From assembly GCA_964017195.1 (NCBI GenBank), contig OZ024891.1, positions 1,390,894 through 1,454,893 on the forward strand: a DNA stretch of 64,000 nucleotides, read 5' to 3'. This DNA is from Siderastrea radians (taxonomy: Eukaryota; Cnidaria; Anthozoa; Scleractinia; Rhizangiidae). How positions within the stretch are numbered: the stretch's first letter is position 1; each line of letters begins with the position of its first letter. Of the stretch, positions 5,151 to 63,012 are shown in pieces. The notes under the pieces are model-generated. The model worked only from the letters and a program-made list of their open reading frames with translations. It was not told where the DNA came from and did no database searches. Position numbers and translations under genes: made by a program.

Positions 5151-6440
5151 ATGAGTTTCAGAACAAGTGAAAATCTGCAACGATATGAATACGTTCGTTT
5201 CCATTTGGATAATGTCATTGAACAGCCTGGTAACAATCAATCACAGAAAAAGACAGGTTACAGATTCACAATCAACGATAGGTCGACTATGTTCGATTTT
5301 TTTAATGGGTATTTCGAAGTAACTAAAGAGCTTCAAAAAAGGGCAGATGGTGCTGGATATGCTGCAGCGGATCGCATCACAATGATAAACGGATCTCACA
5401 GTCTAATCAGACATATGGTTATCAAATCTTCAGGCAAAATCGTATACGAGAGTGATAATTTACATAGAATTACGAATGTCAAAAATCTCCTTGAATACAG
5501 CGATGATTATAGTAGATCCGTTGGAAAGAATTCTTTCTGGTATCTTGACACTGATGGAACAACAGCGAATACCAACTTAGGATTCGAGGCACGTCGTATT
5601 TTAACCCAAGCTAATCAGAATGACGGCGGCGGAGGAGCTAAGAGTATTAACGAGATGATACCGTTGAACCGATACAGCTTTTTCCAGGAATTAGAAAAAA
5701 AAATGCTGCCCCCGATGCAGCTCACGATTGAATTAACATTGAACGAAGATAGTGAACTGATTCACATGGCAAATGGCACAGACGCTGGTCGTGTTGTAGT
5801 AAAAAGATTGTATCTTTGGCTACCAAGACTAATCCCAAAAGACATCATGTATAGTAATTTCGTTTCAGAGTTTCTTAAGCCAACAACCTGGACATATATG
5901 CGAGATATCTACAATCAGTCAGCAAATACCAGAGCTATTCAGAATATGTTTCAAATCAGTCCAGCTATTGATAACGTTAAACATGTTTTTATATATCTCC
6001 AGAGGACAGACGCACCAAATAATGATGAAGCAGAGAGGAGTTCGTATTTGTTCGATACTTTCAAGTTGAATGCCGCTAACGCTAACAGCTCTCTATCAAG
6101 CTGTAGGCTTGAATACGGGAATAACGTTTTTTACCCAGAGCTGGAATATGATAGTGACTCTAAAATACGGATATTTAATGATCTCATGTCATATGCATTT
6201 CGTAAGAACGATTACAATTCAGGAACACAGCTTAATGTATCCAATTTCACTAGTTTGTATGGATTATTGTATTTCGATTTGTCATATCAGAAAGAGGTTG
6301 TGACGAGAGATCCTAAACAGTTGATTCTCCATTATCGTCTCAATGTAGCCCCAGCAGCAAACGTCCGAGCTCATAGCATCGTATTTTACGAGAGTGAGGT
6401 TGTTGTTAAGACAGTTGGAAACGAATTGATGATAGTTTAA
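5151..6440 (+). CDS. Major capsid protein (double jelly roll, hexon-like)
   Basis: A 429-residue, beta-rich protein, the usual size for a Maverick double-jelly-roll capsid. Landmarks shared with E2 (35519-36783) are the N-terminal K-T-G-Y-R/K-F-T pattern near residue 35, F-W-Y-L-D near 127, P-L-N-R-Y-S-F-F near 172, F-Y-P-E-L-E/D-Y-D near 322, F/Y-R-K-N-D-Y-N-x-G near 348 and a C-terminal V-G-N-E-L. It forms the hexameric capsomers of an icosahedral virion. The gene sits centrally in the capsid block behind a strong TCTAAACT-CATATAA start signal. The reading frame is uninterrupted. The family call is based on context and homology between the two elements. Confidence 0.8.
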   Translation: MSFRTSENLQRYEYVRFHLDNVIEQPGNNQSQKKTGYRFTINDRSTMFDFFNGYFEVTKELQKRADGAGYAAADRITMINGSHSLIRHMVIKSSGKIVYESDNLHRITNVKNLLEYSDDYSRSVGKNSFWYLDTDGTTANTNLGFEARRILTQANQNDGGGGAKSINEMIPLNRYSFFQELEKKMLPPMQLTIELTLNEDSELIHMANGTDAGRVVVKRLYLWLPRLIPKDIMYSNFVSEFLKPTTWTYMRDIYNQSANTRAIQNMFQISPAIDNVKHVFIYLQRTDAPNNDEAERSSYLFDTFKLNAANANSSLSSCRLEYGNNVFYPELEYDSDSKIRIFNDLMSYAFRKNDYNSGTQLNVSNFTSLYGLLYFDLSYQKEVVTRDPKQLILHYRLNVAPAANVRAHSIVFYESEVVVKTVGNELMIV

Positions 6441-6499: not shown

Positions 6500-6514
6500 T
6501 CTAACATATAATAT
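6500..6514 (+). promoter_or_regulatory. Late-promoter-like motif before the core protein gene
   Basis: TCTAACATATAATAT abuts the ATG at 6515 and is preceded by GAATTTA, which echoes the GAATTTTA found before the capsid gene motif. Confidence 0.45.
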
Positions 6515-7297
6515 ATGACACAACTATACGAAATTAAAGTTAGTTTATCACCAAACCAGAAAAAGAATCTTAGTAACGCGTATCATAAAAGAGAAACTAT
6601 CATTTTGAGACTGACAAAGGACTCTCTATCTGGGAATGACACTCTATACGTACCTCAGAATATAGTTAAGCGATTGAATAAAAATAGAAAATTGAGAAAA
6701 GGAATGGACATCAAACTAGCCAAAACAAACATTCGAAAGCAAGTTGGTGGATCACTCCTCTCTACAGTTCTGTCGCTTGGAAGAACTTTCGCTCCAACGA
6801 TTGCCAAGACTATTGGATTGTCAGCTTTGGCAGGTTTAGCATCTGAAGGAGCATCTCAGATTGTTAAGAAGATATCTGGAAAAGGTTTACAAACCGGTGG
6901 GTTCCTAATACCACAAAATAAAATCAACCAGTTGATAGCATATAAACATCTTTTGACCACAAAACAAAAACAAGATATATTAAATGCTCTACAAACAGGC
7001 TCTGGTGTTCATATAAAACCGACAAAAGTACAAACAGGTGGGTTCTTAGGGACTCTCCTTGCATCAATTGGAGTCCCTTTAGCTATTGAGGCAATAAAGA
7101 AGATGACTGGTAAAGGAGCTCCTCAGATGGGACGACCTAAACAAAGACCACCCAGATCTATACCAGAACAGGATGGTGGTTTGATGACCAACACTTATAG
7201 AACACCGCCTTTTTACGGAAATTGGCCAGACGATACAATCGGTATGGGGACTAAAAAAAAAAAAAATCTCAAAAAAAGGGCGAAGGTCTACTATTAG
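6515..7297 (+). CDS. pX-like virion core protein with hydrophobic Gly-rich repeats
   Basis: A 260-residue basic protein. After a conserved N-terminal domain (about 1-70) come two Gly-Gly-starting hydrophobic segments (about 78-120 and 170-200; the second reads G-G-F-L-G-T-L-L-A-S-I-G-V-P-L-A). Each is followed by a K-I/M-x-G-K-G motif, resembling the pX-like minor virion proteins of adintoviruses. Further G-G sites could be cleaved by the adjacent adenain-like protease. The E2 homologue is 34773-35480, with the same G-G-F-L-G...S-I-G-V-P-L-A segment. The 3-prime end contains a run of 14 A residues (7253-7266) where the protease frame, offset by +1, overlaps. Confidence 0.65.
   Translation: MTQLYEIKVSLSPNQKKNLSNAYHKRETIILRLTKDSLSGNDTLYVPQNIVKRLNKNRKLRKGMDIKLAKTNIRKQVGGSLLSTVLSLGRTFAPTIAKTIGLSALAGLASEGASQIVKKISGKGLQTGGFLIPQNKINQLIAYKHLLTTKQKQDILNALQTGSGVHIKPTKVQTGGFLGTLLASIGVPLAIEAIKKMTGKGAPQMGRPKQRPPRSIPEQDGGLMTNTYRTPPFYGNWPDDTIGMGTKKKKNLKKRAKVYY
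7253..7297 (+). promoter_or_regulatory. Possible slippage site joining core protein to protease
   Basis: A run of 14 A residues lies at the 3-prime end of the core-protein frame. The protease frame is +1 (equivalently -2) relative to it, is open through this region, and has no ATG before its conserved N-terminal domain. E2 shows the same +1 offset at a run of eight A residues (about 34783-34790). Transcriptional or ribosomal slippage is the simplest explanation; splicing and reinitiation are alternatives. Confidence 0.4.
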
Positions 7298-7805
7298 GCA
7301 AGAACTCGCCGTTCAAAAACGTCCCTCTTCTAAACATTCTGTTGTAAAACCCGAATTCCATAAGAATGTCCCATTAAGTAATTATGATTTAATAAAATGG
7401 TGTAAATATCTGAATATCCCAATTAATGATGTATTGTCAAGAGATGAAAATGTTCCTCACAATCATAGACAGGCTCTATTCATTTACAATCTTGAACCAT
7501 CATATATGAGCGGTAGCCATTGGGTATCCACATATGTGAAAGATAACGTCATCAATTACTTTGATTCATTTGGTTTGCCTCCATTTCAAGAAATAGTTAA
7601 TCATGCTAAAAAGAAGAACTTAACATTGCTTCATCAGAACAATCAAATACAAAATTTACTGACGACAACATGCGGTTACTTCTGTTTATACTTTTTGAAT
7701 GAGATGAATAAGGGCAAATCATATTTTGATCTGTTGGAAGTTTTCGACATATTTAACACGGTTAAAAATGAGAAATTCTTAGAACAGTATTTTAAAAATA
7801 TCTAA
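7263..7805 (+). CDS. Adenain-like cysteine protease (virion maturation)
   Basis: The frame shows the C5-type catalytic set: His in G-S-H-W-V (near 7519), an acidic residue in Y-F-D-S-F-G (near 7565) and Cys in T-C-G-Y-F-C-L-Y-F (near 7670). Adenain processes capsid and core proteins at Gly-Gly type sites, and candidates are present in the neighbouring core protein. The conserved N-terminal D-L-I-K-W-C-K-Y-L-N-I-P (about 7387-7422) lies upstream of any in-frame ATG. The start given is therefore the first codon inside the poly-A run, not a proven initiation codon; a shorter frame would begin at the TTG at 7434. The E2 copy is frameshifted. Confidence 0.8.
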   Translation, partial: KISKKGRRSTIRQELAVQKRPSSKHSVVKPEFHKNVPLSNYDLIKWCKYLNIPINDVLSRDENVPHNHRQALFIYNLEPSYMSGSHWVSTYVKDNVINYFDSFGLPPFQEIVNHAKKKNLTLLHQNNQIQNLLTTTCGYFCLYFLNEMNKGKSYFDLLEVFDIFNTVKNEKFLEQYFKNI

Positions 7806-7816: not shown

Positions 7817-8002
7817 ATGAAATCATATTGCGTGAAACAAAAAAAGGTCACTCTATGTGTACCAGGCAGTGAAAGATATGTAAAAGCCAAAAACGGGCGA
7901 ACCATGCTTAAATGTACTTGTGCAGAATGTGGAATCACTAAGACGAAATTTGTCAAACAATCGGGAAATGGGATAGCCCGTCGAAAGGGGCGGGCTTACT
8001 AG
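7817..8002 (+). CDS. Small zinc-ribbon protein, zero frame of zinc-ribbon/PLA2 fusion
   Basis: A 61-residue protein. An N-terminal Y-C-V-K-x-K-K is followed by K-N-G-R-T-M-L-K-C and C-A-E-C-G-I-T-K-T-K-F-V, a pattern like the small zinc-ribbon proteins (DUF5679 type) of other small dsDNA viruses. The E2 homologue (34179-34328) shares Y-C-V-K-x-K, N-R-K-L-L-K and C-A-S-C-G-I-T-K-T-R-F-V, but has GTG where the ATG should be. The frame ends at TAG 8000-8002. A GGGAAAT heptamer in the zero frame (7963-7969) would divert ribosomes into the PLA2 frame, so this is probably both a free protein and the N-terminus of a fusion. Confidence 0.7.
   Translation: MKSYCVKQKKVTLCVPGSERYVKAKNGRTMLKCTCAECGITKTKFVKQSGNGIARRKGRAY
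7963..7996 (+). promoter_or_regulatory. Candidate -1 ribosomal frameshift signal (E1)
   Basis: The zero frame reads tcG-GGA-AAT, giving slippery heptamer GGGAAAT at 7963-7969. A 5-nt spacer (GGGAT) follows, then a 6-bp GC-rich stem AGCCCG (7975-7980) with CGGGCT (7991-7996) and a 10-nt loop. A second heptamer-like site, A-AAG-GGG (7984-7990), lies in the loop. The -1 frame stays open into the PLA2 domain. E2 has GGGAAAC plus a hairpin at the equivalent place. Confidence 0.6.
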
Positions 8003-8664
8003 ATACAGTAGCATCAGCTGGTACTGATTTATTGATTCACCACGGTATTCCTTGGCTTGGAAAAAAGGCTGTTGAAATGGGAAGATATTATGGATCAGAA
8101 GCCTTGAGAAACCCAAAACTGCAGAAAAAGGCTATCGATTATGCTCTCGATAAGTTGAATCCAATGATTCAAAATGTCGGAAGTCAAGCTCTTGATCAAT
8201 TATCAACAAAAATCAGACCAAATAGAAAGTATAAAACCGACAGAAAGGATTTGGATGGCGCTGGTGTTGATATACATAAACTAATTGGGAAAATACCGAG
8301 ACCAAAAGCTGGATGGACTCCTGGAAAGTATAAATACATGGGGGCATATAACCCTCTCGATAAACAGTTAGAGTATGATAAAAACACTGGAGAGGTCACC
8401 AAGTGGCACGTACAACCTTACAATGAAGTTGATAGAATATCAGCTCATCATGATATTTGTTATGATATGGGGAAAAACAAAGGTGAATGTGACAGAAAAA
8501 TGGTCAAGTCATTAGATGAAATTCCTTATGGACAGATGCCAAAATGGGGACAAACAGCACGATTTCTAATCAACACGAAGCAGAAACTAGGTCTAGGTGT
8601 AAAACAAAGGAAGACAAAAAACGTGAAAGGCCGTCGAGTGAAGAAAACTGGCAAGAAAAATTAG
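7966..8664 (+). CDS. Phospholipase A2-like minor capsid protein (-1 frame product)
   Basis: The frame contains a parvovirus-type PLA2 signature: Y-N-P-L-D-K (calcium-loop region) near 8350, then D-R-I-S-A-H-H-D-I-C-Y-D near 8430-8465 with the catalytic H-D pair, and a downstream D-R-K-M-V-K helix. Such domains help virions breach endosomal membranes. The N-terminal part (G-L-L-D-T-V-A-S-A-G) and a G-R-Y-Y-x-S-E-A motif are conserved in E2. No ATG precedes this conserved segment in the frame; the only early non-ATG candidate is TTG at 8032. The proposed start of the frame is the -1 shift site. The C-terminus is strongly basic. It overlaps the integrase frame by 121 bp. Confidence 0.7.
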   Translation, partial: KWDSPSKGAGLLDTVASAGTDLLIHHGIPWLGKKAVEMGRYYGSEALRNPKLQKKAIDYALDKLNPMIQNVGSQALDQLSTKIRPNRKYKTDRKDLDGAGVDIHKLIGKIPRPKAGWTPGKYKYMGAYNPLDKQLEYDKNTGEVTKWHVQPYNEVDRISAHHDICYDMGKNKGECDRKMVKSLDEIPYGQMPKWGQTARFLINTKQKLGLGVKQRKTKNVKGRRVKKTGKKN

Positions 8665-9581
8665 CTGATGAATTACATAAACCAATAAAGCGTAAATTCA
8701 CTCGGCGGCGAGTAATTGTGAATCATAGTGACAAATTTTGGTGTTCAGATATCGTTGAGATGCAAAAATTTAGTCGATGGAACGCTGGCTACAGATATCT
8801 TCTAATGGTTCTTGATGTCTTCTCTAAATACGGTTGGATAGTCCCTTTAAAAGATAAAAAGGGTGAAACAGTTGCTAAGGCATTAAAAACAATATTCAAA
8901 GAGGGGCGTAAACCACAATATCTTTGGACAGACAAAGGCAAAGAGTATTACAATAAACATGTTAAGGAACTACTTGATAAAAATAAAATAACATTGTACT
9001 CAACTGAGAATGAAGAAAAGTCGTCGGTTTGTGAAAGATGGAACAGAACAATCAAAACCAAAATGTGGAAACAGTTTACTGTTCAAGGTAATACACAGTA
9101 TTTAGACATGCTACCTAAATTAGTGAAACAGTATAACAATACCAAACATTCAAGCACAAAGATGACACCTACAGAAGCAAGCAAAAAGAAGAATGAAGGA
9201 GTTGTTTACTTTAATTTGTATGGTGATATGCAAATATCAAAACAAAAACCAAAGTTCAAAGTAGGTGATAAGGTTAGAATAAGTAAGTATAAACGGAAAG
9301 TGTTTGATAAGGGCTATACACCAAATTGGTCTGAGGAAATTTTCAAAGTTAATGAAATACAACATACGAATCCAATCACATACAAACTAAAGGATCTCAG
9401 AGATGAAGACATTCAAGGGAGTTTTTATGAACCTGAATTACTTAAAGCTGAACAACAGGTATTCAGAATTGATAAAGTGATTCGGAGGGATTATAAGAAG
9501 AAACAGGCTCTTGTTAAATGGAAGGGATACAGTGATGAATTTAACAGTTGGGTTCCAATGAAGGATTTACAAATAATATAA
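8544..9581 (+). CDS. Retroviral-type integrase with C-terminal chromodomain
   Basis: A DDE integrase of 345 residues from the ATG at 8544. The acidic triad is in W-C-S-D-I (Asp69), L-W-T-D-K-G (Asp130) and V-C-E-R-W-N (Glu164), a spacing of 34. A C-terminal SH3-like segment (about 245-275) precedes a chromodomain (about 298-345, ending W-K-G-Y-x-x-x-x-N-S-W-V-P). This enzyme inserts the linear genome into the host chromosome. The first 40 residues overlap the PLA2 gene and look non-conserved, so the true start may be later or depend on frameshifting. Its sequence is unlike the E2 integrase. Confidence 0.9.
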   Translation: MGTNSTISNQHEAETRSRCKTKEDKKRERPSSEENWQEKLADELHKPIKRKFTRRRVIVNHSDKFWCSDIVEMQKFSRWNAGYRYLLMVLDVFSKYGWIVPLKDKKGETVAKALKTIFKEGRKPQYLWTDKGKEYYNKHVKELLDKNKITLYSTENEEKSSVCERWNRTIKTKMWKQFTVQGNTQYLDMLPKLVKQYNNTKHSSTKMTPTEASKKKNEGVVYFNLYGDMQISKQKPKFKVGDKVRISKYKRKVFDKGYTPNWSEEIFKVNEIQHTNPITYKLKDLRDEDIQGSFYEPELLKAEQQVFRIDKVIRRDYKKKQALVKWKGYSDEFNSWVPMKDLQII

Positions 9582-10641: not shown

Positions 10642-11403
10642 ATGAAAGAATCTAATCATATTAATATGGATAAAGCTAGTTTGAAGAAACTCAGCAAATC
10701 ACAACTTATTAAATTGCTTCTGAAGCAGGAGAATAAGAAACCAATTCAACAAAAAAGAAGACCAATACCAACACCTCGTAAGAGTGTCAAAGAAATGGTC
10801 AAGCAGTATGAAGATAATATTATTCAACCACCAGTCCCAGCACCAAGAACTAAGAAACCGGTTCCAACACCAAGAACCATAATAAAACAAACAGACAAAG
10901 CTTTAAAAGGTTTTGCCAAATCTTATGAAATTAACATAAGAAACAACAGAGACCCATTAGCTCAAATGCAAAATACACGAAACGGTGCAGAACGACAATT
11001 AACAACTTTGCTGAATGAAATGAAAGGCTTGAAATACGTTGAAACATTGAAAGTAACATTTGAAAAAATATCAGCTGATGTAATAGTCGAAAAGTCTGCA
11101 TATTTCAATAGTACAAGTCAAACAATAATCAATGAAATGGAAATTAATGAAGCATTACAAATGTCTAAACAAAATATCTTAAACAAGATAGCTCAATGGA
11201 TTTCTGAAGGATCAGGTTGGACGGTACAATCAGTTGATAGTCATTACCTAAACATTGTCAAATACGAACCTATGAAAGGATCCTCATATATCCAACTGCC
11301 TAACGAACTGAGAAATCCAAAAAAGGGGTTGATAAACATGAAAAATGAGGATAATGAATGTTTCAGATGGTGTCATATCAGGCACTTAAAACCAACAAGA
11401 TAA
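10642..11403 (+). CDS. PolB N-terminal domain, separated by a frame change
   Basis: A 253-residue frame. A Lys/Pro-rich start contains repeats of P-V/I-P-T/A-P-R, which could bind SH3-type partners. A globular part ends with L-P-N-E-L, N-E-D-N-E-C-F-R-W-C and H-I-R-H-L-x-P, the conserved lead-in to Maverick polymerases. The frame stops at TAA 11401-11403, while the frame one base on (codons from 11399) is open straight into the polymerase body. A single extra A near 11398 would account for it. The frame therefore looks like the disrupted N-terminus of one long PolB gene; a sequencing error is possible. Confidence 0.65.
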   Translation: MKESNHINMDKASLKKLSKSQLIKLLLKQENKKPIQQKRRPIPTPRKSVKEMVKQYEDNIIQPPVPAPRTKKPVPTPRTIIKQTDKALKGFAKSYEINIRNNRDPLAQMQNTRNGAERQLTTLLNEMKGLKYVETLKVTFEKISADVIVEKSAYFNSTSQTIINEMEINEALQMSKQNILNKIAQWISEGSGWTVQSVDSHYLNIVKYEPMKGSSYIQLPNELRNPKKGLINMKNEDNECFRWCHIRHLKPTR

Positions 11404-11596
11404 ATATCCTCAAAGAATAAAAAAATCTGACAAAGAATATGTCAATAAATTAGATTACTCAGGTGTTGAATTTCCAATAGCTGTCAAACATTACAATAGA
11501 ATCGAGAAGCAGAACAGTGTCAATATAAATGTATTCGGATACGAAAACAAACAGCCATATCCCATCTATGTTTCAAAAGAAAAGTATGAAGATCAT

Positions 11597-14359
11597 ATGG
11601 AACTACTTCTGGTAACTGAAAAAGAAAACAAGCATTATGTTCTTATAAAGGATTTTAATAGATTCATGTATAGCCAAACAAAACATGAACACAGGAAACA
11701 CTTTTGTATGCACTGTCTGCAATGTTTCAGTTCTGAAAGAGTATTAAGCAATCACAAAGATATTTGCATACAAGTGAACGGCACACAAGCAATTAAAATG
11801 CCTAACAAAGACAATAACATACTGAAATTCAACAACTTCCATAAACAGCAACCTGTACCATTTGTCATTTATGCCGATTTTGAGTCTATTTTAGAGAAGA
11901 TTCATGGATGCAAGCAAGACGGTAATAAATCATACACCGAAGCATACCAAACACATGCAGATTGTGGATTTGGTTATAAAGTAGTTTGTTGTTATGACGA
12001 CAAATATACAAAACCAATACAAATATACAGAGGTGAAAAGTCTGTATACAAATTCATGGAAAATATTTTAGAAGAAGTGAAATACTGCAAAAGAGTAATG
12101 AAAAAATATTTCAACAAACCATTAAGAATGACAGAAGAGAATGAACAGGAATTCAAAAAAGCTACAACATGCCACATCTGTGATAAAAAATATACTGAAA
12201 AAGACACTCGAGTGAGAGATCATTGTCATATTACAGGTAAATTTAGAGGTTCAGCTCACCAAGAATGTAATCTGAAACTTAGAATAAACCCAAAAGAAAT
12301 AAAAATTCCTGTCATATTTCACAATCTCAAAGGGTATGATTCTCATTTTATTATGCAAGAGATTGGAGCTATTGTTAAGAAACATACATATAAAAATAAG
12401 AAAGGAGAGGATAAACAAATGAATATCAATGCTATTCCAAACAATATGGAAAAATACATGGCTTTCATGATTGGTACAAATCTTACCTTCATTGATAGTT
12501 TCCAGTTTATGAGTTCAAGTTTGGATAAATTAGTCAGCAACTTACCAGCAGAAGCTTTAAAGTATACAAGCAAAAGATTCCAAAAAGAAAAATTAAATCT
12601 TATGGCACGAAAAGGTGTCTATCCATATGATTACATGGACAGTTTTGAGAAATTCAATAAAACAGAATTACCAACCAAAGAAGAATTTTACAGCATATTA
12701 AATAATGAGCATATTTCAGATGAAGATTATAGTCATGCTGAGAACGTGTGGAATACATTTAAATTAAAAACAATGGGTGAATACCATAATTTATATCTCG
12801 AGTCTGATATACTTCTATTAGCCGACGTGTTTGAAAACTTCCGAAAAATATGTCTTCAGTATTACAAATTAGACCCATGCCACTATTTCACATCACCTGG
12901 TTTGAGCTGGGACGCCATGTTGAAGATGACTAATATTCAATTGGAACTAATGACAGACATAGATATGTTTCAATTTATTGAAAAAGGCTCGCGTGGTGGT
13001 ATATCTTATATTGCTAACCGTTATGCTAAAGCGAATAACAAGTACATGAGTGAATATGATGAGAATATGCCGTCAAAATACATTATTTACCTTGATGCGA
13101 ATAATTTATACGGGTGGGCAATGAGTCAATATCTCCCTACTGGAGGTTTCAAATGGTTGACGGAAAAGCAGATTAATAAAATCAATTTAGCTCAGTATAA
13201 TGAAGACAGTAATAAAGGATTGTTAATAGAAGTCGATTTAGAATACCCGAAAGAGCTTCACGAACTGCATAACAGCTATCCATTAGCTGCTGAGAGAGTT
13301 TGTGTCAATAAAGATATGCTGTCTGAGTATTGTAAAACAATAGCTACAAAATACAATATATCGACAGGACTAGTACATAAATTAATTCCTACATTAAGCA
13401 ACAAAGAAAAATATGTTCTGCATTATAGAAACCTGCAACTGTACCTTGATCTTGGATTGAAAATAAACAAAGTCCATCGAGTTTTAGAATTCAATCAGTC
13501 GCCTTGGCTCAAACAATACATTCAATTCAATACACTGAAACGTACTCAAGCAAAAAATTCATTCGAAAAAGATTTCTTCAAACTTATGAATAACTCCGTT
13601 TTTGGAAAGACAATGGAAAACATAAGAAAGCGTGTTGATGTCCGACTTATCACAGATGAAAAGAAACTATTGAAAATGGTAAGTAAACCTACTTATGTAA
13701 GCAGCAAGATATTCAACAAAGATCTAGTTGCAGTGCATAAAATAAAAGAAACTCTCACTTTAAACAGGCCATCATATGTGGGAATGTGTATTCTCGATTT
13801 AAGCAAGACATTGATGTATGATTTCCATTATAACTACATAAAAGAAAAGTATGGAAACAAAGCCAAATTATTATTCACAGACACAGACTCATTAACATAT
13901 GAAATCGAAACCGATGATGTCTACAGAGACTTTTGGAATGACAAAGATCGATTTGACAACAGCGAATATCCAGAAAGCTCGCCTTATTTCGATAAGACAA
14001 ACAAGAAAGTAATTGGTAAATTCAAAGATGAAGCTTGCAGTATTCCAATAACAGAATTCATCGGTTTGCGATCAAAAATGTATAGCTACATAAAAGACAA
14101 TAATAAAGGCGGAAAAACAGCCAAAGGAATCAAGAAAAATATAATAAATAACAACATCAAACATACTGACTACAAAAATGTTTTATTAGAAAATAGACAA
14201 ATCCAACATACTATGAAAACTATTCGAAGCAGCAAACATCAACTAGGTAGTTACGAAATAAACAAAATATCACTAAGCTGCTTCGATGACAAAAGATATA
14301 TATTAACTAATGGAATAGAAAGTTTGGCTTATGGTCACTATTATATAAGTTCGAAATAA
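11597..14359 (+). CDS. Protein-primed family B DNA polymerase (PolB)
   Basis: 920 residues from the ATG at 11597, with the frame open back to about 11399. A C-M-H-C zinc-finger-like motif lies near residue 38. Exonuclease motifs are Y-A-D-F-E-S (near 92), H-N-L-K-G-Y-D-S-H-F (near 241) and Y-L-E-S-D-I-L-L-L-A-D-V-F (near 400). Polymerase motifs are A, L-D-A-N-N-L-Y-G-W (near 500), B, N-N-S-V-F-G-K-T (near 664), and C, F-T-D-T-D-S-L (near 760). All catalytic residues are present. The enzyme replicates the linear genome from terminal protein-primed ends. It is a different lineage from the E2 polymerase and lies on the same strand as the capsid block, whereas E2's is opposed. Confidence 0.93.
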   Translation: MELLLVTEKENKHYVLIKDFNRFMYSQTKHEHRKHFCMHCLQCFSSERVLSNHKDICIQVNGTQAIKMPNKDNNILKFNNFHKQQPVPFVIYADFESILEKIHGCKQDGNKSYTEAYQTHADCGFGYKVVCCYDDKYTKPIQIYRGEKSVYKFMENILEEVKYCKRVMKKYFNKPLRMTEENEQEFKKATTCHICDKKYTEKDTRVRDHCHITGKFRGSAHQECNLKLRINPKEIKIPVIFHNLKGYDSHFIMQEIGAIVKKHTYKNKKGEDKQMNINAIPNNMEKYMAFMIGTNLTFIDSFQFMSSSLDKLVSNLPAEALKYTSKRFQKEKLNLMARKGVYPYDYMDSFEKFNKTELPTKEEFYSILNNEHISDEDYSHAENVWNTFKLKTMGEYHNLYLESDILLLADVFENFRKICLQYYKLDPCHYFTSPGLSWDAMLKMTNIQLELMTDIDMFQFIEKGSRGGISYIANRYAKANNKYMSEYDENMPSKYIIYLDANNLYGWAMSQYLPTGGFKWLTEKQINKINLAQYNEDSNKGLLIEVDLEYPKELHELHNSYPLAAERVCVNKDMLSEYCKTIATKYNISTGLVHKLIPTLSNKEKYVLHYRNLQLYLDLGLKINKVHRVLEFNQSPWLKQYIQFNTLKRTQAKNSFEKDFFKLMNNSVFGKTMENIRKRVDVRLITDEKKLLKMVSKPTYVSSKIFNKDLVAVHKIKETLTLNRPSYVGMCILDLSKTLMYDFHYNYIKEKYGNKAKLLFTDTDSLTYEIETDDVYRDFWNDKDRFDNSEYPESSPYFDKTNKKVIGKFKDEACSIPITEFIGLRSKMYSYIKDNNKGGKTAKGIKKNIINNNIKHTDYKNVLLENRQIQHTMKTIRSSKHQLGSYEINKISLSCFDDKRYILTNGIESLAYGHYYISSK

Positions 14360-28402: not shown

Positions 28403-31400
28403 TGGTGATGTACACTAACAAAGGTTCGCCTTGGTTTGAACGTTTTTCTGATGCGGAGAAATGGTTGAGTGAGCGGAAGAAGGAACGACTGGACCCTGAC
28501 AACATAAATAGATCGGACACAAAATGGGTGTTTGAAAATCACTTCAATGTTGATATTAAGGTGGTGCTTGATCGTCAACCACTTTTAGGTACAGGACCAT
28601 TACCAGATTGGCTGCGTAACCTTTCACATATCCGTTCGATGCTGGCTTTAGACACTTTCAAAGACAACTTATGTTTATGGCGATGTATTGCGGTACACCG
28701 AGGTTCAAGACCAGATCGAAGTACAACGGCAGCACGGGAGCTTGCAAAGAGTTTTTTCAATCTCGTAGCTATCCCACAAGATTGCCGAAAAACATCTTTA
28801 GATGAACTTGATGAGGTTGAAAAACATCTTAATAAAAAATAAATTTTCACAGATTGGTTGGGAATCTGTGTATATGAGTCTGAACGTATGGAGGATGGTG
28901 AAGTGGTATGGCATCTTAGAAGGAAACCACCAGCCAAATTAATAAATATTTTGACAATTGGAATTTACGAAGGGCATGCTTTCGTTATAAAAGATATTAC
29001 GAAGCTTGCAAAAACTTATGCATGTGTTCATTGCCGTTCAAGATTTACTTAAGCTTGCAGCCTTCAACGGCATATCCAAACATGTTCACAAGGAAAAACG
29101 GTGATTGAATGTCTGGCAGAAAGATTTGAATTACGCAAACAGCTTTTGAGAAAGCTTTTTATCCAAAACATTCATCTTCTCCGGAATCTCTTCGCTGGCT
29201 TGAACAAGAAGCAGCACTTCGTAAAATTCACATTCACCACGCTGCTTGCGGGCATGGAGGTGAAAGATGGGTTGAGCGTGCGCCTGTAGATGGTTACAAC
29301 CATGAAACGAAGACTGTTTTTCAATATCATGGATGTCACTGGCATGGATGTCGAAAATGTTACCCTCGTGATCGAAATGGAATTATTACTCATCATGACC
29401 AAACACGAGAAGATAGATTCAAAGCAACTGTAGAACGTACACAAACTCTTCGAGCTGCTGGCTATCATGTAATCGAGGTATGGTCTTGTGAAGTAGGAGA
29501 AATAAAGATTGAGTTGCCAAAGACTCGAATACAAAGTTATCCACACGCGATATTGTATGACTTTGAAGCATACGGAGATAAAAATCAGAGAAAGGAACCT
29601 ACAGGCATGTTAACTATCGAAAACACACACGTTCCAATTTCTGTTAGCATAGGTGACACTTTAGAAAGAGAACCTACCCACATCTGTGAAAGAGATCCTG
29701 TGGATTTGGTTCATAAGTTCATGGAAGAACTAGAGAGGCCTGGGAAAAACATTCGGGACCAAGTAAGAGCAGCGTTCATACCTGACGATATGAATATGCT
29801 TACAAAAGCACAGCGCCTCAAAATAGAAGAATGGTGTTATCAAGTGCCATTTCTTGGTTTTAACTCTGGAAGATATGATTTGAATCTTATCAGAGAACAT
29901 TTCGCGGAACGTTTATCTGATACAACTGGTAAAGTAAGAGTTGCGAAAAATGGAAACAAAATTATGTTCATTTTGACTAAAAACTTTCGCTTCTCGACAT
30001 CATGAACTACTTAGGTCCGGGTACAAGTTATGAGAAATGGGTGAAAGCCTATGAATGTGAAAATGTAAAATCGTGGTTTCCGTATGATTGGTTTGACACT
30101 CCAGAAAAACTTGATTTTCGCGGACTTCCGAAATATGAGGGTTGGTATTCGAAGCTGAAGGGTGGCTATGTTCTCACACGGGATGAATGGGATGGGTGCC
30201 AGCGTTTGTTCAAAGAAAAAGGTATGTGTACTTTCGCAGACTGGCTGCGTTACTACAATAATGTCGATGTAGCTCCTGGCCTCGAGGCATTGAAAAAGAT
30301 GCGTGCTTTCTACACTGATAAAGGAATCGATATTTTGAAAGACGCTGTTAGTATCCCAGGTGTTAGTTTACATTACTTGCTCCGCGGATGTGTTGAGAGG
30401 GGCGCGGATCTTTACAGCCCGTGCAAAGAAGCGTATGAGACGTTGAAAGAAGCTGTTGTCGGTGGCCCCAGTCTTGTTTTCACAAGATACCATGAAGATG
30501 GAGTCACGAAGATAAGGTCTCATCGAATAGCGGAACCCCGTCTTTGCAAAAATATATTGGGTTACGACGCCAATGCTTTGTACTTATCAACCATGCTTAG
30601 AGACATGCCTTGCGGAAAAGGAAGGGTTGTGCATTATAATAACGAAGCTGCCTCTCCCATACTAACACAAAGGCTCAAAGATGGAAAATGGTTCGGATTC
30701 GCGGAAGTAGATATAGAGATCCCAAAAACCCTGTGGTCAAAATTTGAGGAGATGTGCCCGTTCTTCTACAACAAAGAGGTGCCTGTTGAAGTTGTGCCTC
30801 AACATATGCTTGACTACCTAAAACGAACGAAGCGGAACCGTGGAGACGGAAAGAAGTTAGTGGGAGCATTGTCTGCAAAGAAGATATTATTATACGCTCC
30901 TCTACTTAGATGGTATCTTGAGCATGGAGCAGTGATCAGAAGTGTTTATCGAACGATTGACTATCAACCAACAAAAATATTCACATGGTTTGTAGAGCAA
31001 GTTACTGAAGCTCGTAGAACTGGAGAAGGTAGTCGACAGAGCCTTGCGAAGCGTATATTTTAGTGATCTTGACGAGATCGGGCAGGCGTATGAGCTGGAA
31101 AGCCGAAAGCCGCGGATCACAATCAGAAGACCATTTCAGGTAGGAATAGCTGTATACCAACTGGCAAAGCTTCGAATGCTTGAATTCTATTATGACTTTC
31201 TTGACAGGTATTTTGACAGAAGAGATTTCGAATTGATTCTGATGGACACAGAGCAATTATATAGCAATCAGCGCAGAAAAGTTGGAAGACATCGTCAAAC
31301 CAGAGCTGCAAACAGAATTTGAGGCAAAAAAGCAAGAGTGGTTAGCTTGGGACAAGTGGAGCAGCCGGACCCCTGGGCTCTTTAAACTTGAGTGTGAAGG

Positions 31401-31692
31401 CAGCAGAATGATTGCACTCTGCTCAAAATGTTATTTCGTTGACGAATCTGAGGGTGAAAAAAAGAAGTTTAGCACAAAAGGGATATCTAAGAAGCAAAAC
31501 GAGATAACCTGGCAGCGTTTCAAGAAAGCTTTGGAAGGCAGCAAGGACATAGCAACTAATAGAGGTTTCAGGATGCGGGACGGGCAGATTGTTACGTACG
31601 AACAGCAGAAGCTGGGGCTGAGCGCTTACTATGACAAACGCTGGGTATTGGAAGACGGTATTCACACCGAACCGATCGAATTTCATTGTTAG
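28402..31692 (+). pseudogene. Protein-primed DNA polymerase B of E2, multiply broken
   Basis: Fragments in all three frames line up as one PolB. The N-terminal piece (28402-28842) has N-L-C-L-W-R-C-I-A-V-H-R-G and a later C-V-H-C zinc-finger half. The next pieces have H-H-D-Q-T-R-E-D-R-F, then exonuclease motif D-F-E-A-Y-G-D-K-N (about 29559) and F-N-S-G-R-Y-D-L-N. Motif A is Y-D-A-N-A-L-Y-L-S (about 30565). Frame changes or stops occur near 28842, 29050, 29290, 30000 and 31020. The motif B region is deleted between about 31020 and 31040, and motif C is truncated near 31245, where the expected D-T-D is cut. It is certainly inactive. The lineage differs from E1. Confidence 0.85.
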
Positions 31693-32667
31693 ATTGCCGG
31701 TGGTAGTTGTGTATCTGGAGGGACAACCAAATGTTCTTCGCGGACAAACCAACGTTTTGGACCGTCAAACAAATAAAAGATAACCGGTGCGTCCGGTTTT
31801 ATCATAATCTTTTCAATCTCGTAAATTTTCAAAGACCAGATTGGGTCGGTAGCTCTTCGCCGACCACCTTCAAGTTCACCAGGTTGATAGAGATAGCGAA
31901 CACTTAAACCGGATGGGAGCTTTTTTTCGTTTACACCAACAGGTCTCAAATAAGGGGTCGAGGATTTGGATGTAACAGTTTTCTCTTTGATGGTCTCAAC
32001 GGGTTTCTGACCGGTCAGTCGAAATAACAGCGGGCAGTCGGGCCACCCATTCAGTCGATCTTTTGTCTTCTGGGAGGCGCGTTTCAACCCCATATTGATG
32101 TCCAAACAGTCGTTCAGCCAGGGTGCGGTTGAATCTTTCAACGATAGCTTGATCACGGTGAATATCCACACGACCACGTCTAACCTCAACATTATGTTTC
32201 GAAAGCAGTTGATTCACAGCGCCCATAAACTCACGACCAGGATCGACCTGAAGCAGTTTCGGCCACTTTAAAGGACCACGACTATAAATCCGTTCCAGAG
32301 CAGCTGCAACTTCTTTAGCCTCTTTTGTGGTCAACGGTTCGGCCTCTTTGTATCGAGAGGCCACATCTACCACTGTGAGGGCATATTTAAAAGTTTTACG
32401 GGAGCGTGGTGGGCGATCGTGTGGGAGATACAGAAGATCGGCTTGGTGAACTTTGTTTGGAACAGGAACATCAAATTTCGGTCTTGGAATGTAACGTGGG
32501 GCTGGTAATTAAACCTGCCAAAGAGCTTGCTTCATCAACCAGTTTTGAGCCACATCTTCCGAGACTTTCGCTGCCTTGGATAATTTCTTAATCGCTGCAA
32601 ACCCTTTCCAATACCCTTGCGGGCTGTAATAAATTTTTGACAACCTGTTGAAAATGCGCGTGCTCAT
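31689..32667 (-). pseudogene. Retroviral-type integrase of E2, broken
   Basis: From the ATG at 32667, an N-terminal helical domain (S-T-R-I-F-N-R-L...W-K-G-F) ends at an in-frame TAA near 32509. The same frame then continues with D1 in H-Q-A-D-L-L (about 32450), D2 in L-L-Q-V-D-P-G-R-E-F (about 32250) and E in Q-A-I-V-E-R-F-N-R-T (about 32145). A frameshift near 32020-32040 moves the C-terminal beta domain into another frame that ends at 31689, overlapping the PolB stop by four bases. No chromodomain is seen, unlike E1. The two integrases are only distantly related. Confidence 0.8.
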
Positions 32668-33481: not shown

Positions 33482-34185
33482 CTAAACACCAGTCCATTTT
33501 TCTTGTTTCAAAACCAACCCTAACTTTTGTTTAGCATTGATTGTATTTCTTGCAGCCGCATGATCCCACTGCCGTTGTTTGTAAGGAACTTCGTCAAGAG
33601 CCTTCACCATTTTTTTATCCGCTTTGTGTTTGCATTTTTTGAGATTTTCACCGTATTTTTTTTCACGGTTGGAACAAACATCATAATCAACATCATGTTG
33701 CATAGCAATCGCATCTGTTGCACCTGTTGGTGGTTGATATATTTCCAGAATTTCCCCCGTTTCTGGATCGTAGTTCACCTGCTTTTCAAGAGGATTGTAT
33801 GGCCCTGTGTAATTATGCCCTGGTAATGTCCAACCTTTTTTTGGTTTCGGAAATTTTCCAATTGCTGCATGTAGATCAAACCCAGCTCCATCCAAATCAG
33901 GTCTGTCAGTTTTGTAACGTTGGTTTGGTCGAACTTTAGTTGAAAGTTGATCTAACATTTCACTTCCAACTTTTTGAATGACTGGGCGGGCTTTGTCAAG
34001 AGTGTAATTTATTGCTTTCTTTTGCAGTTTGGGGTCTCTCATTGCTTCAGAAGCGTAATATCGTCCAGCTTCAACACTTTTTTCGCAAGATATGGGATTC
34101 CTTTTGTAATAGCTAGATCACCCACTGCCATGGCAACATCACCAAATATACCACTGCCCTCCGCGCGGGAGGGCTCACCTAGTTT
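33482..34185 (-). pseudogene. Phospholipase A2-like minor capsid protein of E2
   Basis: The body (ORF from 34042) contains L-D-G-A-G-F-D-L, Y-N-P-L-E-K and A-M-Q-H-D-V-D-Y-D with the catalytic H-D pair, followed by the D-K-K-M-V-K-A-L-D-E-V-P helix seen in E1. The upstream part (about 34185-34090: G-S-G-I-F-G-D-V-A-M-A) is in a different frame from the body, so one indel near 34080-34090 has broken the gene. That upstream part is in the -1 frame of the zinc-ribbon gene and lacks an appropriate ATG at its start, as in E1. Confidence 0.75.
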
Positions 34186-34188
34186 CCC
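34156..34188 (-). promoter_or_regulatory. Candidate -1 ribosomal frameshift signal (E2)
   Basis: Read on the minus strand, the zero frame is ccG-GGA-AAC-TAG, placing heptamer GGGAAAC at 34188-34182 directly before the stop. A 7-nt spacer follows, then a perfect 7-bp stem GCCCTCC (34174-34168) and GGAGGGC (34162-34156) with loop CGCGC. GGGAAAC is a known efficient shift heptamer, used for example by the retrotransposon-derived mammalian gene PEG10. The -1 frame enters the PLA2 protein. Confidence 0.65.
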
Positions 34189-34328
34189 GGCACAAAACGT
34201 GTTTTTGTTATTCCGCAACTAGCACATTTTGCCTTTAAGAGTTTTCGATTGTTCTTTGTGATCACAACTTTTTCACTTCCCTGCACATTAGGCGTGTGCC
34301 GCTTTTCTTTCACACAGTACACTTCCAC
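34179..34328 (-). pseudogene. Small zinc-ribbon protein of E2, start codon lost
   Basis: Homologue of E1 7817-8002. It shares Y-C-V-K-E-K-R, N-R-K-L-L-K-A-K and C-A-S-C-G-I-T-K-T-R-F-V. The codon matching the E1 ATG is GTG (34328-34326), so initiation is doubtful. It ends at TAG (34181-34179) immediately after the slippery heptamer. Confidence 0.65.
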
Positions 34329-60102: not shown

Positions 60103-60235
60103 CTGAAAAAAAAAACAGAAAACTATGAATAAGAAGTCGTAGTATAGCCCCAAAGAACCTGAAACGTGTAAAATAAAATTTTTACAAAGATAACATAAAG
60201 ATACGGTTAAGTCGCGACAAGAAGAAGTCGCTTAC

Positions 60236-62392
60236 TTGTAGAGCAGCTCACTCCAGTAAATCCAGGCGCACATGATGGGAATACTGTCGGTGACGAAGAT
60301 GTTGGAGCGATCGAGGATGATGCTAACGGTGACTTACTGGGGGATGTAGATAACGACTGACTTGAGGACACACTTGGTGAGACGCTTTGTGATGTAGAAG
60401 CCGAAACGCTGGTCGAGGTGGAGGTCGAGACACTTGGTGAGACGCTGGTTGAAGATGAGGCAGATACACTCGGCGATATGCTGGTAAAGATCGACGACGA
60501 CACAGTTCTTGAGACACTCTGAGATGTGGAGGTCGAGACACTAGCTGATAAATTAGTCGAGGTTGAGGCTGAAACACTTGGCGAAATGCTGGCAGGCGAC
60601 GATGTCGATACACTTTGTGACACGCTTTGTAATGTGGAAGCCGAGACGCTAGCGGAGATGCTAGTCGAGGGCGAGGTGGACACACTCGTTGAGTTACTCG
60701 GCGATATGCTGGTAGAGATCGATGCCAATACGCTTCTTGAGACACTCTGAGATACGGAGGTTGAGACAATAGCTGATACGCTAGTCGAGGTCGAAGCTGA
60801 AACACTTGCCGAAATGCTGGCAGAAGTCGATGTCGATACACTTGGTGACACGCTATCTGAGAAGCTAGCCGAGGGAGAGATCGACACACTCTGTGAGATG
60901 CTGATAGAGGCTGAGACAGAAACACTCGGTGATCTGCTGGTAGAGATCGATGCCGACACACTTCTTGAGACACTCTGAGATGCGGAGGTCGAGACACTAG
61001 CTGATACACTAGTCGAGGTTGAGGCTGAAACACTTGGCGAAATGCTGACAGAAACTGATGTCAACACACCTGTTGAGACGCTTTGCGATCTGGAAGGGGA
61101 GACGCTAGTCGACGCCGAGGTAGACACACTCCGTGAGGCGCTAGTAGATGTCGAGGCAGAGACAATCGACGAAATGCTGGCAGAGATTGATGTCGACACA
61201 CTTCTTGAGACACTCCGAGATGTAGAGGATGAGACTGAATTACTTGGAGAAATACTGGCAGAGGTTGATGTCGACACACTTGGTGGGACGCTTTGTGATG
61301 TGGAAGCCGAGACGGTAGTTGAGATCCTGGTCGAAGCGGAGGTCGAGACACTAGATGACACGCTGGTCGAAGTCGAGGTAGATACACTCGGCGATATGCT
61401 GATAGAGATCGACACCGATGTACGTCTTGAGACACTCTGAGATGTGGAAGTCGAGACGCTAGCTGATACGCTAGTCGATGTCAAGAAGCTTTGCAAAACG
61501 CTTTGTGATGTGGAAGACGAGAAGCTAGCTGAGATGCTAGTCGAGGGAGAAGTGGACACACTCGGTGATATGCTGGTAGAGCTTGATGCCGACACACTTC
61601 TTGAGACACTCTGAGATGTAGAGGTCGAGACACTAGCTGATATGCTAGTCGATGTTGAGGCTGAAACACTTGGCGAAATGCTGAGAGAAACCAATGTCGA
61701 CACATTTGATGAGGCGCTTTGTGATGTGGAAGTCGCGACGCTAGCTGAGATGCTAGTCGAGGGCGATATGGACACACTCGGTGAGACACTCGGCGATATG
61801 CTGGTAGAGATCGATGTCGACACACTTGGTGAGACACTTTGTGATGTGGAAGCTGAGACGCTAGCTGAGACGCTAGTCGAGGGCGATATGGACACACTCG
61901 GTGAGACACTCGGCGATATGCTGGTAGAGATCGATGCCGACACACTTTGTGAGACACTCGTTGAGATACTTGCCGACATACTTGCTGAGACGCTTGGAGA
62001 GTTGGACGCCGAAACACTAGCTGAGACGGTGGTCGATGTGGAGGCCGAGCCACTCCTTGAGACGCTAGTCGAGGTAGAGGCTGAGACACTTGGGGACACG
62101 CTAGCAGAGATAGATGCCGAAACACTTGGAGAGACGCTATGTGACATGGAGACCGACAGACCAGCGGAGACACCTGGTGAGGTCGACGCCGAGACACTTG
62201 CTGAGGTGCTGGTCGAGGTCGATGCTGACGCACTGGGCGAAATGCTGTCAGACATTGATGCTGACACACTTTGCGAGACGCTTTGCGATGTGGAGGCCGA
62301 GACACTAGCTGAAACACTTGGTGAGAAAGTACTCGAAATGCTTGAGACACTTGGCGACATACTGGCAGAGGTTGAACTTGTGTTCTGTGTCT
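60236..62392 (-). CDS. Mucin/EGF/SEA receptor gene, Ser/Thr repeat exon 2
   Basis: A single 2157-bp exon (719 codons, phase 1-1). Almost all of it is [15 protein letters not shown] dipeptide repeats with regular S-P or A-S steps, ideal for dense O-glycosylation, so the product is an extended cell-surface mucin. The last 25 residues form half an EGF-like unit ([10 protein letters not shown]). Acceptor GCTTTTCAG and donor GTAAGC are clear. The same bases read on the plus strand give a long open acidic frame that is an antisense shadow. Internal repeats make copy-number variation likely. Confidence 0.85.
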
Positions 62393-63012
62393 CTGAAAAG
62401 CGGATAAAGTTGAAACAATTATTAATGAAACGCGGTGGCGCACTGTGAATGTAGTACTGGGTTTTGGTTTGTTTCCTTTTTGTGCAAGTATCATTTAAAG
62501 TTTATTTTTAGTAATAGTTACTTATCGGGTTTTTGGACTAGTCAAATGTGATGGTGATGACTGAAGTGATGAAGATCTTTAAATTTGGTTCAGCAAATGC
62601 TGCGCGGTTGTTGAAACAAATGTTGAAACCGTTTAAACAAGCCTTCCCTCAGACGAAAGCTATTTCAGTTTTTGGCTTGCAAGGTTCTCCTGTAGCTTAA
62701 TTCCGAGAAGCTTTGTTTCCAGACGCTTCCCGTCTGTCGGCTGGACAGACAAGATTTTTAGAGCCCGTTAAATCACTTGTTATGGTTTATTTCCCATATC
62801 GAGGGAAAGCTAGTGGAAACCTCACCCATGGTCCTTGTCTTGAAGTTTTAACCTCTGAGGCAGTTCAAACGTCGAACCGTTTACATGTGCCGAACCTAAT
62901 GCAAATTAGCAAAAACAATAGCTTTTGCTTATTTGCATTAGGTTCGGCATGCGTAAAGTTCAGCGTTTGAACTAGGCCTAAGCGTCAAAAAGTTAATAAG
63001 TACATGACTTAC

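Follow-up and report, generated by a model that had tools for sequence, protein, structure and literature searches.

A putative retrovirus-type −1 frameshift signal between the zinc-ribbon and PLA2 genes of Maverick-type elements in Siderastrea radians

The junction between the zinc-ribbon and PLA2 genes of Maverick-type elements in the genome of Siderastrea radians carries what is very probably a real, evolved −1 frameshift signal of the retrovirus type (slip site 1), through which a minor zinc-ribbon–PLA2 protein would be made. Ribosomes on the zinc-ribbon gene would meet the heptamer G GGA AAC (G GGA AAT in the element E1), a GC-rich hairpin 5–7 nt downstream would stall them, and a fraction would slip back by one base, re-pair on GGG AAA and continue into PLA2. 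The main product would be a short zinc-ribbon protein, ending right after the heptamer in 60 of 112 copies, and the minor product a zinc-ribbon–PLA2 fusion. This fusion is probably a capsid protein present in few copies, whose role may be to open the endosomal membrane in the manner of parvovirus VP1. A second heptamer towards the 3' end of PLA2 in the E1 family, A AAA AAC or U UUA AAC, would send a further fraction into the integrase. We infer the slippage itself, together with its rate, the role of the product in the virion and a shared mRNA of the genes. As to the wider picture, the balance tips slightly towards a chain of −1 frameshifts in a eukaryotic dsDNA virus lineage, leading from the zinc ribbon to PLA2 to the integrase (E1 family) and perhaps from pX to the protease.

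The elements and their first junction

The window, which is the whole stretch of DNA analysed, comprises 64,000 nt of Siderastrea radians (assembly GCA_964017195.1, contig OZ024891.1, positions 1,390,894–1,454,893, forward strand) and holds E1 and a second element, E2. The E1 genes described here lie on the plus strand and include a capsid-region ORF (5151–6440), for which no Pfam match was found when a double jelly-roll capsid protein was sought, and a pX-like ORF (6512–7297), the labels capsid and pX being provisional names given by position. The conserved region of the protease-like ORF (7188–7805) is not preceded by an ATG, and the overlap with pX contains an A14 run (7253–7266); the match of this ORF to the Adenain-type protease family PF00770 reaches 16.1 bits, under the cut-off of 21.3. 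The zinc-ribbon ORF, which sets the zero frame, extends from its ATG at 7817 to a TAG stop at 8000–8002 (ORF 7817–8002) and is named DUF5679-like only, because its PF18930 match of 20.7 bits falls under the curated cut-off of 27. The PLA2 ORF (7942–8664) lies in the −1 frame to the zinc ribbon and is open from the heptamer onwards, as the earlier note had proposed; its N-terminus is without an ATG, the first in-frame one appearing about 45 codons into the translation. The integrase ORF (8520–9581), with rve and chromo domains, is again −1 to PLA2 and has an in-frame ATG at 8544.

Pfam matches to PF08398 (Parvovirus-type PLA2) lie above the curated cut-off of 23.9 in both elements, at 26.3 bits in E1 and 37.2 bits in E2. 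The integrase (PF00665, 48.6 bits) with its C-terminal chromodomain (PF00385, 33.1 bits) and the packaging ATPase (PF04665, Pox_A32, 34.9 bits) are those of a Maverick/Polinton or an adintovirus. When a protein-primed PolB of the Maverick/Polinton kind was sought, Endonuclease_7 was the sole Pfam match of a 989-aa ORF at 11390–14359. The window also contains a 764-aa open frame rich in serine repeats on the minus strand (60207–62501).

Slip site 1 of E1, G GGA AAT in the zinc-ribbon frame, was found at 7963–7969 (+), where the earlier note had placed such a heptamer. The 5-nt spacer that the note described also stands (7970–7974), while the stem proved longer than the 6 bp given there: hairpin 1 has 8 bp, with 7975–7982 paired to 7989–7996 (+), and folding of a 42-nt window gives −16.5 kcal/mol. 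As had likewise been claimed, the heptamer recurs at the same Gly-Asn codons in E2, there as G GGA AAC on the minus strand (34188–34182), with a zero-frame TAG following at once (34181–34179). The hairpin 1 of E2 (34174–34168 paired with 34162–34156, minus strand) has 7 bp and a sequence unlike that of E1. As a control for chance, eight other stretches of E1 ORFs were scanned: of their 2,940 codons, 20 carry a canonical heptamer in phase, which is GGGAAAN in a single case.

E2 is a decayed element. Its zinc-ribbon frame survives as a decayed copy (34179–34319, minus strand), and its PLA2 region (33482–34188, minus strand) takes up the −1 frame at the heptamer and keeps it until a second frame change inside PLA2. 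A PDB search with the E2 PLA2 returned weak matches only, among them a match of its C-terminal part (33485–34117, residues 111–206) to ryanodine receptor repeats (6uhi_A, E 5.5e-5). Beside E2 lie ORFs in opposite orientation that, judged by eye, resemble pieces of another Maverick-type polymerase (29130–31692, plus strand) and integrase (31996–32508, minus strand).

Eukaryotic −1 frameshift signals have a spacer of about 5–9 nt, and a pseudoknot is a common, not a universal, stimulator. Site 1 combines a zero-frame heptamer of the form X XXY YYZ with an overlapping −1 ORF that is under selection and has no start of its own, and by predicted folding its main stem begins 5–7 nt downstream of the heptamer, which is the arrangement of a eukaryotic −1 signal.

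Site 1 in genomic copies and foreign proteins

The layout, the heptamer, the spacer, the predicted hairpins, the selection and the natural variants can be read directly from the copies of the element. A search of the genome (804.8 Mb, 439 contigs) gave 2,299 first-look candidates; 150 were scored, and every one of them matched. Zinc-ribbon/PLA2 junctions were read at 125 loci, E1 and E2 included. This is a non-random sample: it consists of the best 30 E1 matches, the best 30 E2 matches, 20 loci from the E1 list picked partly for odd open frames, and 45 loci from lists obtained with foreign proteins (P0012 20, P0027 5, P0045 20). The layout is −1 in 112 of the 125 and in frame in 13, the latter having been chosen on purpose, either because their open frames were long or because they stood on the in-frame list. 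Locus counts of this kind are not independent, given near-identical copies and recombination.

The heptamer, whose conservation the earlier note had proposed to examine, is conserved within this genome. GGGAAAC is present in 105 of the 112 −1 copies (L040 and L045 carry it in phase), GGGAAAT in two (E1 and L002), GGGAAAG in one (L057) and GGTAAAC in four; GGGAAAC is thus the norm and the GGGAAAT of E1 a rarer variant. The GGTAAAC copies (L097, L114, L117, L123) form a lineage that has kept the −1 layout with a poor heptamer. A stop codon directly follows the heptamer in the 60 copies mentioned above (TAG 39, TGA 13, TAA 8), and the zinc-ribbon protein therefore ends there.

The first base of the heptamer is the third base of the preceding codon, and the pattern used to count these codons required nothing but GGA or GTA with AAN after it, leaving the G free. 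Among the 112 copies the preceding codon is CCG (33), TCG (31), CAG (20), GCG (16), ACG (7), CTG (2), TTG (2) or GGG (1), that is eight codons for seven amino acids with G at the third position in 112 of 112. In the genes of the element, TCG makes up 0.003 of serine codons (0.3%) and GCG 0.075 of alanine codons (7.5%), the corresponding values being 0.09 for CCG, 0.115 for ACG, 0.209 for GGG and 0.312 for CAG. As the amino acid varies while the third-base G is constant, the constraint seems to lie on the heptamer rather than on the protein.

The absence of a start codon for PLA2, also asserted in the earlier note, is borne out by 91 −1 copies with in-phase GGGAAAN among the first 100 loci: a −1-frame ATG is missing in 83 of them (59 of 67 distinct sequences), lies inside the zinc-ribbon gene in 6 and within 45 nt downstream in 2 more. 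These eight copies, together with the many foreign gene calls whose first codon is a −1-frame ATG within the zinc-ribbon gene (M-W-Y-N...), are what would suggest that PLA2 is started independently, by leaky scanning, internal entry or a non-AUG codon. Such a start is very improbable, being at odds with the lack of the ATG in most copies and with in-frame relatives that show the fusion, and it would leave heptamer, spacer and hairpin unexplained. Hardly more credible is a joining of the frames in the RNA by a small intron, editing or polymerase slippage, even though the GGTGAG that follows the heptamer in E2-type copies resembles a splice donor and the long A run of the pX–protease junction makes polymerase slippage plausible there, since this donor-like sequence is missing from E1-type copies such as GGGAAACGGGATAGCC and GGGAAAC is not a long homopolymer.

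All seven pairs of hairpin 1 form in 109 of the 112 −1 copies, the exceptions with a stem mismatch being L036, L047 and L121, and three main forms exist, GCCCGTC/GGCGGGC, GCCCTCC/GGAGGGC and GCCCTCTC/GAGGGGGC. Between these forms both sides of the stem have changed, pair 5 being G-C, U-A or U-G and pair 7 C-G or U-A, so that the stem conservation and covariation between lineages which the earlier note had named as a check were both observed. The 39 distinct downstream windows fold at −11.6 to −20.7 kcal/mol, whereas their synonymous resamples average −6.0 to −8.6, and in all 38 testable windows hairpin 1 is stabler than synonymous-codon resamples of the −1 frame (p ≤ 0.033). The conserved −1-frame peptide P-S-x-x-G-x-G favours pairing codons by itself, which the resampling test allows for.

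Purifying selection acts on both genes, as judged from their codons. The median dN/dS is 0.158 for the zinc ribbon (71 distinct sequences) and 0.130 for PLA2 read in the −1 frame (58 distinct), calculated from pairs with a dS of 0.1–1.5 that are non-independent and likely affected by recombination. The PLA2 value was restricted to loci with a −1 frame that stays open beyond 190 codons, which is the case in 62 of 77 long loci; 3 of the 77 are in-frame copies.

Copies in which the two genes are fused directly throw further light on the junction. With an in-frame foreign protein as query, 2,949 candidates were obtained and 142 scored, of which 13 are near full length without stops and 2 more have stops. 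The earlier note had counted a PLA2 in the frame of its zinc ribbon as evidence against frameshifting; such fusions do exist, in a minority of the scored loci (13 of 142), and the remaining −1 copies are not refuted by them. The 13 in-frame junctions that were read arose in several ways: by one extra base beyond the heptamer in eight loci (one with GAGAAAC), by loss of the heptamer in L062, L065 and L103, by a larger loss in L096 and by an extra stem base in L101. A canonical heptamer is missing in 5 of 13 in-frame copies compared with 5 of 112 −1 copies, a difference that is indicative only, some of the in-frame copies being near relatives.

A tree was built from the flanks with the junction left out and identical-flank rows dropped, which kept 106 of the 125 rows. 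The in-frame label requires five changes on it (4–5 in bootstraps), all on the E1 side, with the well-supported branches by themselves forcing one such change only; L066 (in frame) and L076 (−1) even have identical flanks. As the in-frame copies are scattered among −1 copies, the −1 layout looks ancestral and the direct fusions derived, in this genome. Their existence suggests that the zinc-ribbon–PLA2 fusion protein is the wanted product, and their persistence here and in a foreign cluster (P0001, 147 member sequences, without the heptamer) means that the shift is not indispensable.

Foreign proteins were taken from the best 120 of 1,504 matches to the E1 PLA2 and the best 120 of 2,717 matches to P0029, together 214 distinct sequences, 90 of which extend upstream of the junction. 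Among these 90 listed proteins, 14 carry the zinc ribbon as an in-frame fusion (P0027, P0039, P0041 and others); these were set aside together with 4 that start inside the in-frame lineage and 6 of other make-up, leaving 66. Since gene callers frequently place the PLA2 start within the zinc-ribbon gene, the −1 reading of the heptamer is visible in the protein. Counted by eye, the −1 reading of the 66 listed N-termini is GK in 58, KK in 6 (P0012, P0015, P0023, P0028, P0047 and P0205 among the matches listed), RK in one (P0045) and neither in one (P0141), and the residue after GK is L, R, W or P. GK followed by one of these would fit GGG AAA C/T, and KK followed by L would fit AAA AAA C, itself a classical slip site, the heptamers being deduced here from protein sequences and not from DNA.

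In S. radians, P0047 as query gave partial stretches only, most of them where E1-like copies had already been located, and at two of these places one PLA2/integrase stretch each was taken for reading. A PLA2 scan of viral_contigs gave no relative. The PLA2 of the E2 family (L031–L060) has an extra C-terminal stretch, IPSTKPVFDRYW...FWTHPKKGTVMRLV, which by eye resembles a part of P0052 and P0069 that lies upstream of PLA2.

The least credible account of site 1 is decay, in which an indel would have split a once continuous gene and helpers would have amplified the broken copy: decayed copies (E2 among them) and in-frame fusions do exist, yet both frames are under purifying selection, the same layout is shared by two families with about 55% PLA2 identity and by foreign proteins, the third-position G is retained across eight codons, and the in-frame copies sit among −1 copies on the tree. 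Decay, a private start codon and splicing were all rejected as explanations of site 1.

The integrase and protease junctions

A second slip site, absent from the earlier note and an addition to it, is found where PLA2 meets the integrase. In E1 it reads A AAA AAC in the PLA2 frame (8616–8622, plus strand) and is followed after 7 nt by a long-range stem 2 with its 5' arm at 8630–8642 and its 3' arm at 8697–8709 (plus strand). Both anchors were readable in 67 of 145 loci (L143 excluded), and the relation of PLA2 to the integrase is −1 in 66 of the 67. An in-phase heptamer is present in all 66, as AAAAAAC in 60 and as UUUAAAC in 6, with TGA immediately after in five of the six. The three copies of the GGTAAAC lineage read at this site (L134, L135, L131) have UUUAAAC there. 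Stem 2 was seen at this 7-nt distance in 20 of 22 distinct windows (z-scores −1.0 to −3.7), with a length of about 13 bp and in many cases a single mismatch. Changes on both of its sides are few, and the overlap of coding frames constrains change there. In L142 and L143, which were chosen for their length, PLA2 and the integrase are joined in frame. In the E2 family no PLA2–integrase overlap was found, and integrase matches start about 0.7–1.1 kb past PLA2.

Site 2 is, on this comparison, likely a frameshift signal into the integrase, with a confidence well below that for site 1. It is possible, if the less probable reading, that the site goes unused, the integrase being translated from its own ATG (8544 in E1) and AAAAAAC being simply Lys-Asn in overlapping genes. 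An integrase-frame ATG after the last stop is present in 47 of 66 copies, and in E1 it stands in AAAATGG, a good initiation context. Against an unused site speak the 19 of 66 copies (15 of 33 distinct) from which the ATG is missing, the replacement of AAAAAAC by UUUAAAC in six copies with a TGA directly after in five, and the presence of stem 2 in 20 of the 22 distinct windows.

The pX–protease junction is a possible third recoded junction, and polymerase slippage is plausible there. From the last stop to the conserved region, the protease has no ATG in any of the 45 out-of-frame copies. Relative to pX, in 59 of 60 long loci, the protease is −1 in 29, +1 in 16 (E1 included) and in frame in 14. 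The overlap is an A run of variable length, and ten −1 copies out of the 29, each belonging to the E2 family, have A AAA AAC there with a stop directly after it. Slip tracts in phase were found in 29 of 29 −1, 14 of 16 +1 and 13 of 14 in-frame copies, and, being common to all three, they prove nothing by their presence. The length of the A run drifts in genomic copies, which makes the reading of this junction uncertain.

Relation to known systems

Programmed frameshifting is a textbook feature of RNA viruses and retroelements, and in betaretroviruses the integrase lies in the last frame. Among the systems most like the S. radians elements are betaretrovirus gag-pro and pro-pol (gag-pro-pol), which share the same heptamers, a downstream structure and consecutive frames. 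In the parts of PMC3835772 consulted, GGGAAAC is tabled for MPMV, SRV-1, JSRV, HERV-K10, a visna virus, CAEV and FIV, and AAAAAAC for MMTV and others; the first number column, taken as the spacer, holds 7 for the betaretrovirus sites. Unlike betaretroviruses, the element described here is a dsDNA element of the Maverick type with a zinc ribbon and PLA2 in place of Gag and protease, and its stimulators are simple hairpins, as predicted by simple folding.

Parvoviruses make VP1 by splicing or start-site choice and are not known to use frameshifting for it. Their VP1 PLA2 minor capsid protein shares PF08398 with the PLA2 described here, which would likewise be a minor component; by sequence the E2 PLA2 matches parvovirus VP1 chains in the PDB only weakly (E 0.74–1). 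The bacterial IS3-type orfA-orfB arrangement, in the excerpts of PMC5009743, also pairs a DNA-binding upstream product with a −1 fusion to a transposase domain as the minor product, but relies on bacterial sites and ribosomes, whereas the slip sites here are of eukaryotic type and PLA2 lies between.

Within the same broad virus group, −1 frameshifts have been predicted for adintoviruses at the 3' end of the Penton ORF and between Hexon and Adenain in a preprint (PMC11071296), the nearest counterpart in the literature covered. The mechanism is of the same type and given as prediction only; other genes are concerned, and the frameshift passages of that preprint mention neither zinc ribbon, PLA2 or integrase nor comparative evidence. 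Where frameshifts appear in the portions of PMC8097293 and PMC10120064 consulted, they are mutations, assembly errors or search settings. In the portions of the literature covered, including PMC11071296, PMC8097293, PMC10120064 and PMC12567637 and with the original adintovirus description outside its scope, no frameshifted PLA2 or integrase is described for Mavericks, Polintons or adintoviruses.

If the frameshift at site 1 is real, it would explain why gene callers cut PLA2 short or place its start within the zinc-ribbon gene, and it would offer a model in which an entry enzyme is supplied in rationed doses. With copies that have the shift and copies that lack it both occurring naturally, the frameshift lends itself to a direct test. 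The second site, if used, would suggest that the retrovirus-type integrase of a DNA virus is expressed the retroviral way as well. Under the chain reading, a lytic capsid enzyme, an integrase and maybe a protease would all be rationed read-on products of short structural genes.
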